From: Rhodothermales bacterium
GTDB lineage: Bacteria; Bacteroidota; Rhodothermia; Rhodothermales; JANQRZ01
Direction of reading: 5' to 3'
Assembly: GCA_028284265.1 (NCBI GenBank)
Contig: JANQRZ010000019.1
Span: 124,001 to 188,000 of the forward strand
DNA: 64,000 nt
Shown here: one piece after another, positions 20,136 to 28,355 of the stretch
Numbering within the stretch: the first letter of the stretch is position 1
How the letters are laid out: each line of letters starts with the position of its first letter
Made by a program: the position numbers and the translations under genes
Notes under the pieces: generated by a model
Seen by the model: the letters and a program-made list of their open reading frames with translations, nothing else
The model's database searches: none
What the model was told of the DNA's origin: nothing

Positions 20136-22700
20136 TTACTTGAGGACAGTCACCTTCTGACTGGCGGTGAACGTCTCGCCCGTGAACTGGACCACGTAGG
20201 TGCCGCCCGCGAGCGCATCGCCCGTCACGCGAAGTGTCTGCTCCACGTTCGCTGGAATGCGCGCGTCGAGCAGCGTCTGCACACGGCGACCGAGGAGGTC
20301 GTAGACCTCGGCACGAACGGCCTGGGCCTCGCGGACGGTGAAGCGCACCGCTGTCGAGCGGGCAAACGGATTCGGGAACGCTGCGGCGATCCGGTAGGCT
20401 TCGGTCAGCGTAGCCTCATCTTCAACGTCCGTGCTCGGCTCGGTGTAGAAGAACAAGGCCCACTGCGCAAGGCTGCCAGTGTCCTGCCCGGCCCCGTCAC
20501 AGACGCTGAGCGTCCACGTCCCTTGCAGGTTCTCCCCATCAAAGTCTGAGAGCGGATCGACGCCCGTAGTGCCCGGATCGCCCTGTTCGGGCTGGCCTTC
20601 TACGTCATAGAACGGAGCATCCGTGTCGTGGGCATCGCCGCTGCCGAAGACGCCCGCCGTTCCTGTATCGCTGAAGAGCGCATCGAGGTTGGGCGCGCTC
20701 GTGCCGAAGTTGCCCGTGCCGGGCCGGTCGAGCAGGTTGACGACCGTACCTTCGGGACTTTGGAGTTGGATACGGAGGTCGCCCCGGTAGGTGTGGTCAA
20801 TTGTCACGCCAACCTTCATGTCGATCGGATCGAAGTCGTCGGTCACATCGACTGTGCTGCTCTGGAAGGTCGGGCACCCGTTGTCGCTGATGCTAAAGCC
20901 CTCGTCGTTCGAGTAAAAGAAATCCGGCGCGACGAACACGTCAATGAGCGTGCTGGGGCGAAGCGGAAGATTGAGGCTTGGGTGGTTCACAACGCCCTCG
21001 TTCGTGATCGGCTCGCCGGGGGCGTCTTCAGAGACGGTCACGTCGTAGGAGATCGTCTCCGAGCCGCCATCATCCACGTCCAGCGTCCACGAGATCGTCC
21101 CGCCGTCTTCCGAGGCATTGCCACTGGACGCCGTAAGGTTGCCCGCGTAGGAGAGGTTCGCGGGGAGCACGTTCTCGAAGCTCACGGCCTCACCCGTCTC
21201 GGTGCCGCCGTTGAAGACCTCGACGCTGATCGTCGTCGTCTCGCCGGGGGACACCGACACCGGCTGGGCATCCATCACCGCGAGAAGTTGGATCGGGCCG
21301 GGCGGATTGCCCGCCTCCATTCCGTTGATGAACTCCGCACCCGTGTTGCCAGGATCGAGGAAGGCTTCGGCCCCCGTCGTCATGTTGCGCGCCATCCGAC
21401 CGTACCAGTCGGGGGTCTGGCTGCTACACGACGCAAAGCCGCCGGAAAGCTGCCCCACGACGCGCTTCTCGGGGCTATAGAGTGGCGAGCCGGAGGAGCC
21501 ACCTTCGGTCGTGCCGAGATCCCAGTCCTCAACGCGGATGTGGGTGCCGCTCGGATTCGGCGTGTCGCTCAGGTATGAGGTGATGCTGGTTGGATCGTCT
21601 TCAAACGAGATGCGCTTCTCCTCGACCTGCGGGTGGTGAATGGCGATGGCGCTCGCCGTCGCTTGGTCGCGCTTGTCCCAGCCGTTGAGCCAGACGCTGT
21701 ACTCCGGCGGAATCGGGTCGTCGGTTTCGAGGATGGTCCAGTCCGGGCCGCCGGAGGTGCCACCGCCGGAGGTGTCCATGAAAATGGTACCCGAGGAGAA
21801 CTGGTCGCGCGTGCCGTCGCCGGGACCGCCACTCGCAGCGGAGCCGGGCGGGCGGCAGGTTGAGTTCTGGTAGTTCCAGTAAATCACGACACTCGGGGCA
21901 TTGCCCGCGCTGTTGCCGCAGTGGTCGGCGGTGAGGAAGTAGGGCGTCCCGTCCATCGACGTGTTGTTCATCGCCGAGCCGCTGCAAATGTCCGTGCCGC
22001 TGCGCGTGTAGGCCCCGACAGAGCGGATAATGTCGCGGTAGCCGTTGCCTTCGGGACACACCACGTCCACATTGCACGAACCGGAGCGGGCGAGGTCGGT
22101 CTCGTCCCACGTCTCGCGGGCGATCCCGAAGGGCCGGTAGGCGTGGTTGACGCTGCCGATACGCAGTTCGTAATCGTCGGCCTCGGACGGCTTCGCATTA
22201 GGCAGGTTTAGCTCGACCACGATCTCGTCGCCGCGCACGATGGGCGTCCAGAGTTCGCCGTGGACCTCGTTGTCGGCAGCGGTGAAGGCGCGGAAGTGCG
22301 GCTCTTCGCCCGCCGGGTAAATCCAGAGCACCGCACCCTCGGGCAGCCGAAACTGGTCAAAGCCGAGGTTGAGCGAGTACGCACCGGGCGAGGCGATGCG
22401 GAGCCGCCACAGGCGCGACCCGTCGGCGAGGGTCTGCCACGTTCCAGCGTTCCGGGTGGTCGTGGCGACCTCGAACGGCTCGGCGAAGCGCAGTGGGCCG
22501 AGTTTGCCGTCGGACGCAGCCGCATCGCGGGCGATGAGGGCGTCGTTGTCCAACGTCGGCATCGTGACCAGCGCTACGCCGTCAAGGGAAGCGGATTCAA
22601 CAGCGTGGAACGAGGCCGGGAGCGGAGCGGCTTGCTGGGCTTGGGTCGGGAGAGCGAGCAGGAGCACGCACGCCGCGAGGAGCGGGTAGCGGTACGGCAT
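20136..22700 (-). CDS. Secreted lysyl-endopeptidase-like serine protease with P-domain and type IX sorting domain
   Basis: 854 aa. A signal peptide (YRYPLLAACVLLLALPTQAQ) precedes a propeptide. The trypsin-fold core has His260 (LTADHCG), Asp320 (GPDWTILETDD) and Ser405 (GGSSGSPLYS). The stretch SPEKRVVGQLSGG...DWYGRM closely parallels Achromobacter lysyl endopeptidase, including the Asp before YGR that selects lysine at P1. An Ig-like CARDB-type repeat follows (about 470-590), then a proprotein-convertase P-domain (MKVGVTIDHTYRGDLRIQLQSP, GTWTLSVCDGAGQDTG). The last ~85 residues form a type A sorting domain (FPNPFARSTAVRFTV ... VYDLLGRRVQTLLDA ... ASQKVTVLK). Expected to be exported and cell-surface bound or released. 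Confidence 0.92.
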   Translation of the reverse strand: MPYRYPLLAACVLLLALPTQAQQAAPLPASFHAVESASLDGVALVTMPTLDNDALIARDAAASDGKLGPLRFAEPFEVATTTRNAGTWQTLADGSRLWRLRIASPGAYSLNLGFDQFRLPEGAVLWIYPAGEEPHFRAFTAADNEVHGELWTPIVRGDEIVVELNLPNAKPSEADDYELRIGSVNHAYRPFGIARETWDETDLARSGSCNVDVVCPEGNGYRDIIRSVGAYTRSGTDICSGSAMNNTSMDGTPYFLTADHCGNSAGNAPSVVIYWNYQNSTCRPPGSAASGGPGDGTRDQFSSGTIFMDTSGGGTSGGPDWTILETDDPIPPEYSVWLNGWDKRDQATASAIAIHHPQVEEKRISFEDDPTSITSYLSDTPNPSGTHIRVEDWDLGTTEGGSSGSPLYSPEKRVVGQLSGGFASCSSQTPDWYGRMARNMTTGAEAFLDPGNTGAEFINGMEAGNPPGPIQLLAVMDAQPVSVSPGETTTISVEVFNGGTETGEAVSFENVLPANLSYAGNLTASSGNASEDGGTISWTLDVDDGGSETISYDVTVSEDAPGEPITNEGVVNHPSLNLPLRPSTLIDVFVAPDFFYSNDEGFSISDNGCPTFQSSTVDVTDDFDPIDMKVGVTIDHTYRGDLRIQLQSPEGTVVNLLDRPGTGNFGTSAPNLDALFSDTGTAGVFGSGDAHDTDAPFYDVEGQPEQGDPGTTGVDPLSDFDGENLQGTWTLSVCDGAGQDTGSLAQWALFFYTEPSTDVEDEATLTEAYRIAAAFPNPFARSTAVRFTVREAQAVRAEVYDLLGRRVQTLLDARIPANVEQTLRVTGDALAGGTYVVQFTGETFTASQKVTVLK

Positions 22701-22792: not shown

Positions 22793-23461
22793 TCACTCTA
22801 CCCATACCGCGACCTCATCCAGCGGCTTCCGCCCGAAGTCCGGCACCGTCGCGTCGGTGGCGGGATAGCCGATGGGAAAGAGGATGTACGGTCGCTCGTG
22901 CTTGGGGCGGCCAAGAATCTCGTTCAGGAAGCGCATCGGGCTGGGCGTGTGGGTCAGCGTGGCGAGACCCATCTGGTGAAGCGCCGCGATGAAAAAGCCC
23001 GCTGCGATGCCACAGCTTTCCTGCACGTAGTAATGCTTCTCCTTCTCCCCCGCTTCGCCCACGCCCGTGCTCTGCGCGAAGAGGACGACAATCCACGGCA
23101 CCATCTCCAGAAACGGCTTCTCCCAGTCCGTTCCGATAGGTGCCAACGCCTCCAGCCATTCGGGCGTGGCGCGCTCGGCGTAGAACGACCGTTCCTCCTC
23201 CTCGGCGGCCTCGCGGATGCGGCGCTTCACGTCGGGATCGCTAATGGCGACAAAAGTCCACGGCTGCTTGTGTGCCCCGCTCGGAGCCGTGCTCGCGGTC
23301 TGGATGGCTCGTTCGATAAGGCGACGCGGGACTGGCTGATCGGTGAAGTCGCGGACGGAGCGGCGGCGGTCAAGGTCGCGGTAGAACGCCTCGGCGCGGC
23401 TTGCCATCTCGTCCTCGGAGTGGGTCTGAAAGTCGAGAGGGATACGGGGAAACGCAGGCAT
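22793..23461 (-). CDS. Nitroreductase-fold FMN protein of the iodotyrosine deiodinase (IYD) subfamily
   Basis: 222 aa. DRRRSVRDFTDQPVP and TAPSGAHKQPWTFVAI bind FMN phosphate. EEERSFY, DWEKPFL and HYYVQESCGIAAG, followed by LATLTHTP and LGRPKHERPYILFPIGYP, align with mammalian IYD. The substrate-lid residues are all present: Glu90, Tyr94 and Lys115. Their spacing (4 and 21) equals Glu157-Tyr161-Lys182 of human IYD, and the Thr of THTP corresponds to the flavin N5 hydrogen-bond threonine. The family reductively dehalogenates iodo- and bromotyrosine; bacterial members exist. No membrane anchor. Its ATG overlaps the upstream deaminase stop by 1 nt, so the pair is coupled. Confidence 0.88.
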   Translation of the reverse strand: MPAFPRIPLDFQTHSEDEMASRAEAFYRDLDRRRSVRDFTDQPVPRRLIERAIQTASTAPSGAHKQPWTFVAISDPDVKRRIREAAEEEERSFYAERATPEWLEALAPIGTDWEKPFLEMVPWIVVLFAQSTGVGEAGEKEKHYYVQESCGIAAGFFIAALHQMGLATLTHTPSPMRFLNEILGRPKHERPYILFPIGYPATDATVPDFGRKPLDEVAVWVE

Positions 23462-23970
23462 TAATACAGTTTATCGCGACTTACTTGGGCAAAGAGATCG
23501 AATGCTTTCTGTGCTTCATCGCGGAGGATACCCCCTTCGATGGCAACGGTTGCACCGCCGAGCGTTTTCATCTGCTCGTTGGACACGGATAGCTCGCGGA
23601 AGCCCGCCCGGTCGGCATCTTCGATGTAGGTGCCGAAAACGATGCGGTCGCAGTTGGCCCAGTGGATCGCGGAGAAGCACATCGGGCACGGCTCGGTCGA
23701 GGAGTAGATCGTGCAGCCCGCGAGGTCGATGGTTTCCAGCTTTTCGCAGGCGACGCGGAGCGCGTGAACCTCGGCGTGGGCCGTGATGTCGGTCGTCGCC
23801 CAGACGACGTTGTGGACGGCACAGACGACCTCACCATCTTTGACGATGACGGCCCCGAATGGACTCTGCCCGTCGCGGACGCTCTGTTTCGCCTGCTCGA
23901 TGGCGAGGCGCATGAAGTCGAGATCGGCAGTGTCGGGCATGGGTACGTAGGCAGTTTTCTTATCTGTCAT
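23461..23970 (-). CDS. Nucleoside/guanine deaminase-like zinc enzyme
   Basis: 169 aa from ATG 23970, or 159 aa from ATG 23940. The shorter form fits the family length better and keeps the start out of the adjacent repeat. QSPFGAVIVKDGEVV, HAEVHALR and STEPCPMCFSAIHWA give the zinc site (His plus two Cys) and the catalytic Glu of the cytidine-deaminase fold. The layout, with FGTYIEDADRAGFRE and a C-terminal QKAFDLFAQVSRDKLY, is closest to Bacillus-type guanine deaminase, though tRNA-adenosine deaminase relatives share the core. The stop codon overlaps the start of the IYD-like gene. Confidence 0.88.
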   Translation of the reverse strand: MTDKKTAYVPMPDTADLDFMRLAIEQAKQSVRDGQSPFGAVIVKDGEVVCAVHNVVWATTDITAHAEVHALRVACEKLETIDLAGCTIYSSTEPCPMCFSAIHWANCDRIVFGTYIEDADRAGFRELSVSNEQMKTLGGATVAIEGGILRDEAQKAFDLFAQVSRDKLY

Positions 23971-24079: not shown

Positions 24080-24805
24080 CTATTCCAACTCAAAGATGAC
24101 GGTGACGGTGGCGCGGACGGTGATCTCGCCTGCGGCATAGGCACCGGGGTTGCTCTCCTCAGCCATGTCCATCGCGGCCATCTCGGCACGGGCGTACATC
24201 ATGGGTGGCGGACGCGGCACGCTCACACCGCTCTCGGCGATCTGGACGACGCGACCGAGCCGGGCGTCGAGCACCTCGGCCATATTTTGTGCCTTCTGAC
24301 GCGCACGGGCGACGGCGTCGCGCAGCGCTTGGTCTTCCACGCTCTCACGGTCCTGCAGGCCGTACTGGATGCCGTTCAACTCATTCGCCCCCTGCTGCAC
24401 GACTTCGGCGACGAGACTCGGCACCAAGTCCAAGTCCTCAATCGTCACCTTCACGTCGCGGCGGGCGATGTAGCCTTTGCGGATGCGCTGGTTGTTGCGG
24501 TACTCCCACTCCTCGTCGAGCCGGAGGGAAAGAAGCTGAATCTTGCGGTCGGCGACGCCGAGGGCGCGGACGGCGTCGATCGCGGCTTCGGCGGCTTCGG
24601 CGTTCTCGCGCCGGGCGTCCTCCGCCGTCTCGGCCCGCGTCACGACGGCGAACTGCACCGTCGCCTCGTCCGGCTCCACGTCGATGGTCCCGACGCCGCT
24701 GACGGTGACGGTGCGCGTGTCAGGCTTGTCGGCGGGCTGGGCGGTCACGGTGGGGATGGCGAGGAGAAGGAGGAGCGAGAAAAGAGCAAGCAGAAAGCGG
24801 TTCAT
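24080..24805 (-). CDS. SIMPL-domain (DUF541) exported protein
   Basis: About 241 aa from the in-frame ATG ending at 24805, selected because NRFLLALFSLLLLLAIPTVTAQ is a signal peptide. TVTVSGVGTIDVEPDEATVQFAVVTRAETAEDARRENA is the opening of the SIMPL/YggE fold. DVKVTIEDLDLVPSLVAEVVQQGANELNGIQYGL and AVARARQKAQNMAEVLDARLGRVVQI are the remaining hallmarks. Family members form large periplasmic rings and have been linked to oxidative-stress tolerance, but the function is not firmly known. It stands alone downstream of an uncharacterised membrane-protein gene. Confidence 0.9.
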   Translation of the reverse strand: MNRFLLALFSLLLLLAIPTVTAQPADKPDTRTVTVSGVGTIDVEPDEATVQFAVVTRAETAEDARRENAEAAEAAIDAVRALGVADRKIQLLSLRLDEEWEYRNNQRIRKGYIARRDVKVTIEDLDLVPSLVAEVVQQGANELNGIQYGLQDRESVEDQALRDAVARARQKAQNMAEVLDARLGRVVQIAESGVSVPRPPPMMYARAEMAAMDMAEESNPGAYAAGEITVRATVTVIFELE

Positions 24806-24874
24806 GGCAGGAGGTGTTGATGAAGAGCGTGACAGGCCCTTCAACGGTTGAGGCTGTCGGAAAGGTACATATCA

Positions 24875-26188: not shown

Positions 26189-27697
26189 TTATGGATTCAG
26201 CCGCCCGAGGAGGCGCGGGAAGGGGATCGTCTCGCGGACGTGCGGGAGGCCGCAGACCCACGCGACGGTCCGCTCCAGCCCCAGCCCGAAGCCCGCGTGC
26301 GGGACCGACCCGTAGCGCCGCAGGTCGAGGTACCACTCGAACACCTCCTGCGGCAGACTGTGCGCGGCGATCTGCTCCTTGAGGAAGTCGAGGTCCGTCG
26401 CCCGCTCGCCGCCGCCGACGATCTCGCCGTAGCCCTCCGGCGCGAGCACGTCCATGCCGAGCGCGAGCAGATCGTCCTCGGGGTCGCGCTTCATGTAGAA
26501 CGCCTTGATCGCCGCCGGGAAGCGGTGGACGATGATAGGCCGGTCGAAGTGCTTGGTGAGCACCGTCTCGTCGGAGCCACCGAAGTCGTTGCCCCACTCG
26601 AAGTTCGCCGCGCTCTCTTTCCACTGCGGCAGGTTGCGGAGCGACTCCTCGATCTCGTCGAGCCGCCCGTTGATGGCGATCTCGCGGGCGTCGATCCGGC
26701 GCTTCTCCCCTTTCTTGGCCTGCCCGTAGCGGGCGCGGTTCTCGTCGCGCTCCGTGGTCAGCGCCGCCTGCTCCGCTTCAAGGTCGGAGATCTCGGCATC
26801 GAGCATCTGCTGCGTCTCGTCGCTCCTCAGAATCTCGACGGCCTCGGAGTAGTGGACGCGGGGGAAGCCACCCTCGGTGGCTTTTTGCAGCGCCGTCGTG
26901 TCGCGCTCCAGGAGGGCGAGCTCGTCAGCGCAGTCGCGCAGCACGTCGGTGGCGACCCGCTGGAGCAGCCCTTCGGCGAGCGTCATATCCATGTCGAGGT
27001 CGTAGAACGCCATCTCGGGTTCGATCATCCAGAACTCGGTCAGGTGCCGCCGGGTCTTCGACTTCTCGGCGCGGAAGGTCGGGCCGAAGGTGTAGATCTT
27101 GCCGTGGGCGAGCGCCATCGCCTCGCCGTAGAGCTGGCCGCTCTGCGTGAGATAGGCAGGCTCGTCGAAGTAGTCTAGCTCGAACAGCGTGCTCGTGCCC
27201 TCGACCGCGTTGCCGGTCAGGATCGGCGGGTCCATCTGGATGAACCCGTCCTCCTGAAAGAAGGCGTGGATCGACTGGATGATGCGGTTGCGAACGCGCA
27301 TGATGGCCCACTGCCGCTGCGAGCGGAGCCACAGGTGTCGGTTGTTCATCAGGAACTCGACCCCGTGCGCCTTCGGGCTGATCGGGTACTCCTCGGCGAG
27401 GCTGAGGAGTTCGACCGCCGTCGCTTGCACCTCGTAGCCGCCCACCTGCCGCTCGTCGGCGACGACCGTGCCAGTGATGCGGAGGGCGCTCTCCTGCGTC
27501 GCCGCGCTCGCCGCCTCGAAGCTGTCGGCATCGACCTGCTCCTCGTTCACGACGCACTGGGCGAGGCCGGTGCCGTCGCGGAGAATGAGGAAGTAGAGGC
27601 TCTTGGAGCCGCGTTTGTTGTAGAGCCAGCCCTGGAGAGTGACAGTCTCGCCCTCGTGCTGGGCGAGGTCGCGGACGGCAGTAACGGAATCGATCAT
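26189..27697 (-). CDS. asnS: Asparaginyl-tRNA synthetase
   Basis: 502 aa from ATG at 27697. The OB-fold anticodon domain (GETVTLQGWLYNKRGSKSLYFLILRDGTG) comes first. Class II motif 2 lies in FGPTFRAEKSKTRRHLTEFWMIEPEMAF and motif 3 in GFGLGLERTVAWVCGLPHVRETIPFPR. Between them is a ~75-residue charged helical insertion (about 270-345, with EAEQAALTTERDENRARYG) that makes it longer than the E. coli enzyme; comparable insertions occur in other Bacteroidota. It charges tRNA-Asn. A longer upstream frame lacks family sequence. Confidence 0.96.
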   Translation of the reverse strand: MIDSVTAVRDLAQHEGETVTLQGWLYNKRGSKSLYFLILRDGTGLAQCVVNEEQVDADSFEAASAATQESALRITGTVVADERQVGGYEVQATAVELLSLAEEYPISPKAHGVEFLMNNRHLWLRSQRQWAIMRVRNRIIQSIHAFFQEDGFIQMDPPILTGNAVEGTSTLFELDYFDEPAYLTQSGQLYGEAMALAHGKIYTFGPTFRAEKSKTRRHLTEFWMIEPEMAFYDLDMDMTLAEGLLQRVATDVLRDCADELALLERDTTALQKATEGGFPRVHYSEAVEILRSDETQQMLDAEISDLEAEQAALTTERDENRARYGQAKKGEKRRIDAREIAINGRLDEIEESLRNLPQWKESAANFEWGNDFGGSDETVLTKHFDRPIIVHRFPAAIKAFYMKRDPEDDLLALGMDVLAPEGYGEIVGGGERATDLDFLKEQIAAHSLPQEVFEWYLDLRRYGSVPHAGFGLGLERTVAWVCGLPHVRETIPFPRLLGRLNP

Positions 27698-27758
27698 GGA
27701 GACGAAGGGCAACAGGAATAGGAGCGCAAAAAATACGGTCGCGCCGGTCGCCCCTGCC

Positions 27759-28355
27759 CTAGCCGCCCGTGACGATCTCCTGAAGCCTCGCGGCCTCGAC
27801 CGCTCCTTCGCGCAGCACGACGAGCCGCCCGTCCTCCACGCGCACCACGGTCGAGGGCGTGCCGCCGAGGCCACGCCCGGCGTCCACGGCGAGGTCAGCG
27901 GCATTGGTCACTGCTGGATCGAGATCGGCGAAGCGGTGCGCGGGCGTTTGGCCCGCTTGATTGGCCGAAGTCGAGAGCACGGGCGTGTCAGCAGCGACGA
28001 TGAGGGCGAGGCAGAATGGGTCGGTCGTCCGCCGGATGCCGATGCCACCTTGCGCGCTGACGAGACCCGGCGGTGCCTCGGGCGAGGCGTCGAACACGAC
28101 CGTCACCGGCAGCGGCTCGTGCTGCATCAGGCGGCGGTGCACCTCGGTCAGCCCATCGAGCCACGCTTCAACCCGATCCCACGTATCGGTCAGCGCGAGC
28201 ATCGGGCGGTCGGCGTCGCGGCCTTTGATGGCGCGGATGCGGGCGACGGCCTCAGCGTCTGCCGGATCGCAGCCCAGCCCATAGACCGTCTCGGTCGGGT
28301 AGACGATCACCCCGCCCGACCGGATCACCTCGGCGGCGCGCTCGACCTCACTCAC
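27759..28355 (-). CDS. tsaC: L-threonylcarbamoyladenylate synthase (TsaC/YrdC/Sua5)
   Basis: 198 aa beginning GTG at 28355. GGVIVYPTETVYGLGCDP is the signature nucleotide- and threonine-binding block, followed by IRAIKGRDADRPML, PVTVVF, GIGIRRT and VLSTSANQAGQ. It makes threonylcarbamoyl-AMP for the universal t6A37 modification of ANN-decoding tRNAs. Lacks the C-terminal Sua5 domain. The GTG overlaps the stop of the GWxTD gene by 4 nt, implying coupling. Some MnmE-independent TsaC proteins are longer, but this length is normal. Confidence 0.93.
   Translation of the reverse strand: MSEVERAAEVIRSGGVIVYPTETVYGLGCDPADAEAVARIRAIKGRDADRPMLALTDTWDRVEAWLDGLTEVHRRLMQHEPLPVTVVFDASPEAPPGLVSAQGGIGIRRTTDPFCLALIVAADTPVLSTSANQAGQTPAHRFADLDPAVTNAADLAVDAGRGLGGTPSTVVRVEDGRLVVLREGAVEAARLQEIVTGG

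Follow-up and report, generated by a model that had tools for sequence, protein, structure and literature searches.

The question raised by the gene at positions 22,793 to 23,461 of the window (the whole 64,000-nucleotide stretch of a Rhodothermales contig that we analysed) is whether its product is a bacterial relative of the thyroid enzyme iodotyrosine deiodinase (IYD) or an ordinary nitroreductase, and what it might be used for. The feature in question is as follows:

22793..23461, minus strand: iyd-like gene, 222 aa (identified from the open reading frame and its translation, PDB match, alignment, tree, and model with Foldseek search)

The open reading frame runs from an ATG at 23461 down to a stop at 22793 and does encode an IYD-like protein, as the preliminary description had it without giving a strand. 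The plus-strand frame over these positions is likewise open, which is common in GC-rich DNA (the GC content of the window is 0.65). A terminator-like site within the gene is at the chance level.

Family assignment

The protein matches the Pfam family Nitroreductase (PF00881) with an E-value of 3.1e-24, above the cut-off of the model. Only this general family passes its cut-off and NCBIfam gave no match to an IYD-specific model, so the curated libraries leave the name IYD unconfirmed. Comparison with all solved structures (phmmer) is more specific. The best match is the IYD of Haliscomenobacter hydrossis (5ko7; E = 3.3e-76, 259 bits, 54% identity), followed by mouse and human IYD (E of about 1e-58, about 45% identity), then the 6pz0 IYD (1e-23), and then other nitroreductases at 1e-15 or worse. 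Judged from these scores, the likeness to IYD is far beyond chance.

In a 50-row maximum-likelihood tree (the 6pz0 IYD was not among the rows), the protein falls within a 31-row IYD clade with support of 100/99, whose other rows are the IYDs of H. hydrossis, human, and mouse and 27 further bacterial homologues. BluB, NfsA, NfsB, RutE, YdjA, and the other sampled nitroreductases lie outside this clade. The long outgroup branches are placed in an uncertain order; the IYD clade itself is secure. The preliminary description had proposed such a superfamily tree as a check, with BluB, NfsB, or FRP as the groups that would tell against it; the protein clusters with the verified IYDs and not with these.

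The predicted fold leads to the same family. We modelled the protein with AlphaFold2 from 36 own-locus sequences, as a monomer without cofactor or substrate, and obtained a pLDDT of 92.2 and a pTM of 0.88. The top Foldseek match of this model is 5ko8_B, the H. hydrossis IYD in complex with FMN and monoiodotyrosine (TM 0.95, rmsd 1.2 A, 218 columns, 52% identity), and every one of the best 25 PDB chains is an IYD. By its match to this ligand-bound chain, the model has the expected fold, with the substrate lid as part of it. By every test open to sequence, then, the protein is a member of the IYD family.

Its closest relative of solved structure, H. hydrossis IYD (5ko7, 5ko8, 5krd), has the same fold, all of the active-site residues, a similar length, and 52-54% identity; both proteins are bacterial and lack a membrane anchor. 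The H. hydrossis enzyme differs by ordinary sequence divergence only (for example, it has T where our protein has S35). Human and mouse IYD, or DEHAL1 (4ttb, 4ttc, 3gb5, 3gfd, 3tnz), share the triad with its spacing and the FMN residues (44-46% identity, 1.2 A), but the loop after the THTP/TTTP motif is slightly different and the animal enzymes carry an N-terminal membrane anchor (PMC3930498). The IYD of the 6pz0 series (6pz0, 6q1b, 6q1l, 6tyk) shares the enzyme name and the fold at only 28% identity and a TM of 0.72. Finally, BluB, NfsA, NfsB, RutE, and YdjA share the FMN fold and an RRS-type phosphate motif, but they lack the E/Y/K triad and form separate clades; a 2018 paper describes BluB and Iyd as specialised subgroups within the nitroreductase superfamily (PMC6017928).

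Active-site residues and the proposed reaction

In human IYD, the zwitterion of the substrate is gripped by Glu, Tyr, and Lys (E157, Y161, and K182), a Thr (T239) is placed at flavin N5, and R100, R101, S102, and R279 form the FMN-phosphate set. We mapped these residues on the 50-row alignment, with the human numbering anchored on E157. E90, Y94, and K115 of the protein fall on E157, Y161, and K182, column for column, with spacings of 4 and 21. The preliminary description had pointed to this triad and its human spacings, and the alignment confirms it in detail. It had also named a flavin-phosphate Arg-Ser-Val and the Thr in THTP, and these hold as well: RRSVR at 33-37 aligns with human R100-R104 (R33, R34, S35, and R37 on R100, R101, S102, and R104), and T172, the second Thr of THTP, aligns with T239. 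R211 falls on R279, which completes the match of R33, R34, S35, and R211 to the FMN-phosphate set. Also, A63 falls on human A130, W102, L106, and T111 on W169, L173, and T178, and Y145 on Y212. All told, 19 of the 19 cofactor and active-site positions that we checked are identical to human IYD.

The triad is kept in every one of 36 aligned bacterial homologues from many phyla. It is found in 0 of the 19 rows of the alignment that represent the rest of the superfamily (BluB, NfsA, NfsB, RutE, YdjA, 4dn2, 2i7h, and eight nitroreductases from related genomes), and the BluB rows show H/A/L in the triad columns.

We are confident that the product is an FMN enzyme of the IYD family, soluble and cytosolic, very likely a homodimer and most likely acting on free halotyrosine. 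The dimer, the FMN, the substrate, and the mechanism are carried over from the studied homologues, and on that basis dehalogenation of halotyrosine is well founded as a probable activity. The enzyme would most likely bind free halotyrosine (3-iodo-, 3,5-diiodo-, or bromotyrosine), with E90, Y94, and K115 clamping the amino acid part while the lid shuts over the flavin. The phenolate would sit near A63 and FMN, and the reduced FMN, with its N5 hydrogen-bonded by T172, would donate electrons in one-electron steps. Halide and tyrosine would then be released.

Could the protein instead be an enzyme of the BluB, NfsB, or FRP type that resembles IYD by chance? NCBIfam does give weak matches to BluB (58.5 bits, where the cut-off is 150) and to FbiB, both below cut-off, but the E-values for IYD beat those for BluB by 50 orders of magnitude or more, BluB lies elsewhere in the tree, and its triad columns hold other residues. 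The PDB sequence matches, the tree, the Foldseek search, and the residue map together rule out this identity, and we give it practically no weight. The family named in the preliminary description thus holds: the sequence, the active-site residues, the tree, and the predicted fold mark the protein as an IYD and not an ordinary nitroreductase. A subtler alternative accepts the descent and the fold but holds that the main role is the reduction of nitro compounds or quinones, or the clean-up of other halophenols, with deiodination of tyrosine as a side reaction. The protein is the only member of PF00881 that we found in the genome (E ≤ 0.001), so any activity of this type may fall to it, and the gene neighbourhood shows no halogen pathway. 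However, the residues that grip the zwitterion are unchanged across the 36 homologues, a sign that selection has favoured an amino acid ligand, for instance a halotyrosine. We consider this alternative unlikely.

Distribution and biological role

When 60 genomes of the order were sampled (counting the genome studied here), 44 had a strong homologue (E ≤ 1e-68), always as a single gene, although some families of the order have no IYD homologue in this sample. In a sample of the phylum, 32 of 99 genomes contain a homologue (E ≤ 1e-40). A scan of 84,980 species gave at least 583 confirmed stretches; judging by record titles, the 80 loci that we kept include Bacteroidota, Pseudomonadota, Acidobacteria, Actinomycetota, Chloroflexota, Planctomycetota, Gemmatimonadota, and others. 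The existence of bacterial IYDs has been on record since 2014, and the crystal structures of the H. hydrossis enzyme were released in 2017. As bacterial IYDs are both common (hundreds of species in many phyla) and already known, the gene is no surprise, and to call it notable overstates the case. It is one more well-supported case of the thyroid enzyme's many bacterial relatives.

That the gene is widespread in the order as a single copy, and often next to asparaginyl-tRNA synthetase or SIMPL, suggests a constant, general use rather than an uncommon marine specialisation. The results lend no support to a marine source of halotyrosine, as had been suggested: the surrounding genes are of the housekeeping kind, with no halogen pathway close by. 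Nor do they support the suggested link to secreted proteases, beyond a single gene next door for a secreted-looking protein with a P domain. As to tyrosine breakdown, the genome contains a 4-hydroxyphenylpyruvate dioxygenase, and homogentisate dioxygenase (HgmA, PF04209) was not found in it.

Gene neighbourhood

The genes around the iyd-like gene that we could name are:

23461..23970, minus strand: zinc-dependent nucleobase/nucleoside-type deaminase, 169 aa, directly upstream (Pfam PF00383 at 1.7e-25, PDB match, junction sequence)
24080-24844, minus strand: SIMPL (DUF541) protein, upstream
26189-27904, minus strand: class II tRNA synthetase, which in relatives is of the asparaginyl type, upstream
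20136-22700, minus strand: 854-aa protein that looks secreted and has a proprotein-convertase P domain, downstream

Two open reading frames without a Pfam family also lie upstream on the same strand. The deaminase gene overlaps the iyd-like gene by 1 base (TAATG), with the iyd-like start inside the deaminase stop; the two genes are thus translationally coupled and probably on the same transcript. The best PDB match of the deaminase is a guanosine deaminase (4e-30), and deoxycytidine and guanine deaminases are also among its best solved relatives. Elsewhere in the genome there are three further PF00383 loci. As far as shown, the deaminase stands outside the deiodination mechanism. The pair is not a conserved operon in general: a deaminase lies beside the IYD gene in only 4 of 29 relatives' loci (1.5 kb flanks), two of which belong to the nearest genomes.

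Given this coupling and the nearness of SIMPL, one could imagine metabolite repair, in which the enzyme would clear free halotyrosine from own or scavenged proteins hit by hypohalous acid, as part of a joint clean-up of damaged building blocks. We regard this as very unlikely.

Among the homologues, the only recurring immediate neighbours on the same strand are asparaginyl-tRNA synthetase and SIMPL, both within this order, and acetyltransferases of various kinds. Many members of the order have asparaginyl-tRNA synthetase or, in several cases, SIMPL directly upstream of the IYD gene. Thus, the place of the gene is partly conserved, but the context speaks of housekeeping. No partner for halogen metabolism, transport, or tyrosine breakdown recurs beside the homologues across species, and beside the distant homologues no neighbour gene recurs in numbers; these neighbours were called by a simple longest-ORF heuristic, so single ones may be missed.

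The reading frame of the tRNA synthetase (26189-27904) has an N-terminal extension, probably from an over-long start. In the downstream protein (20136-22700), an N-terminal part is followed by DUF11 and the P domain, and the C-terminus ends in a sorting-like tail. The N-terminal part has no Pfam match, and with its GTSGGP/GGSSGSP motifs it looks like a trypsin-type protease.
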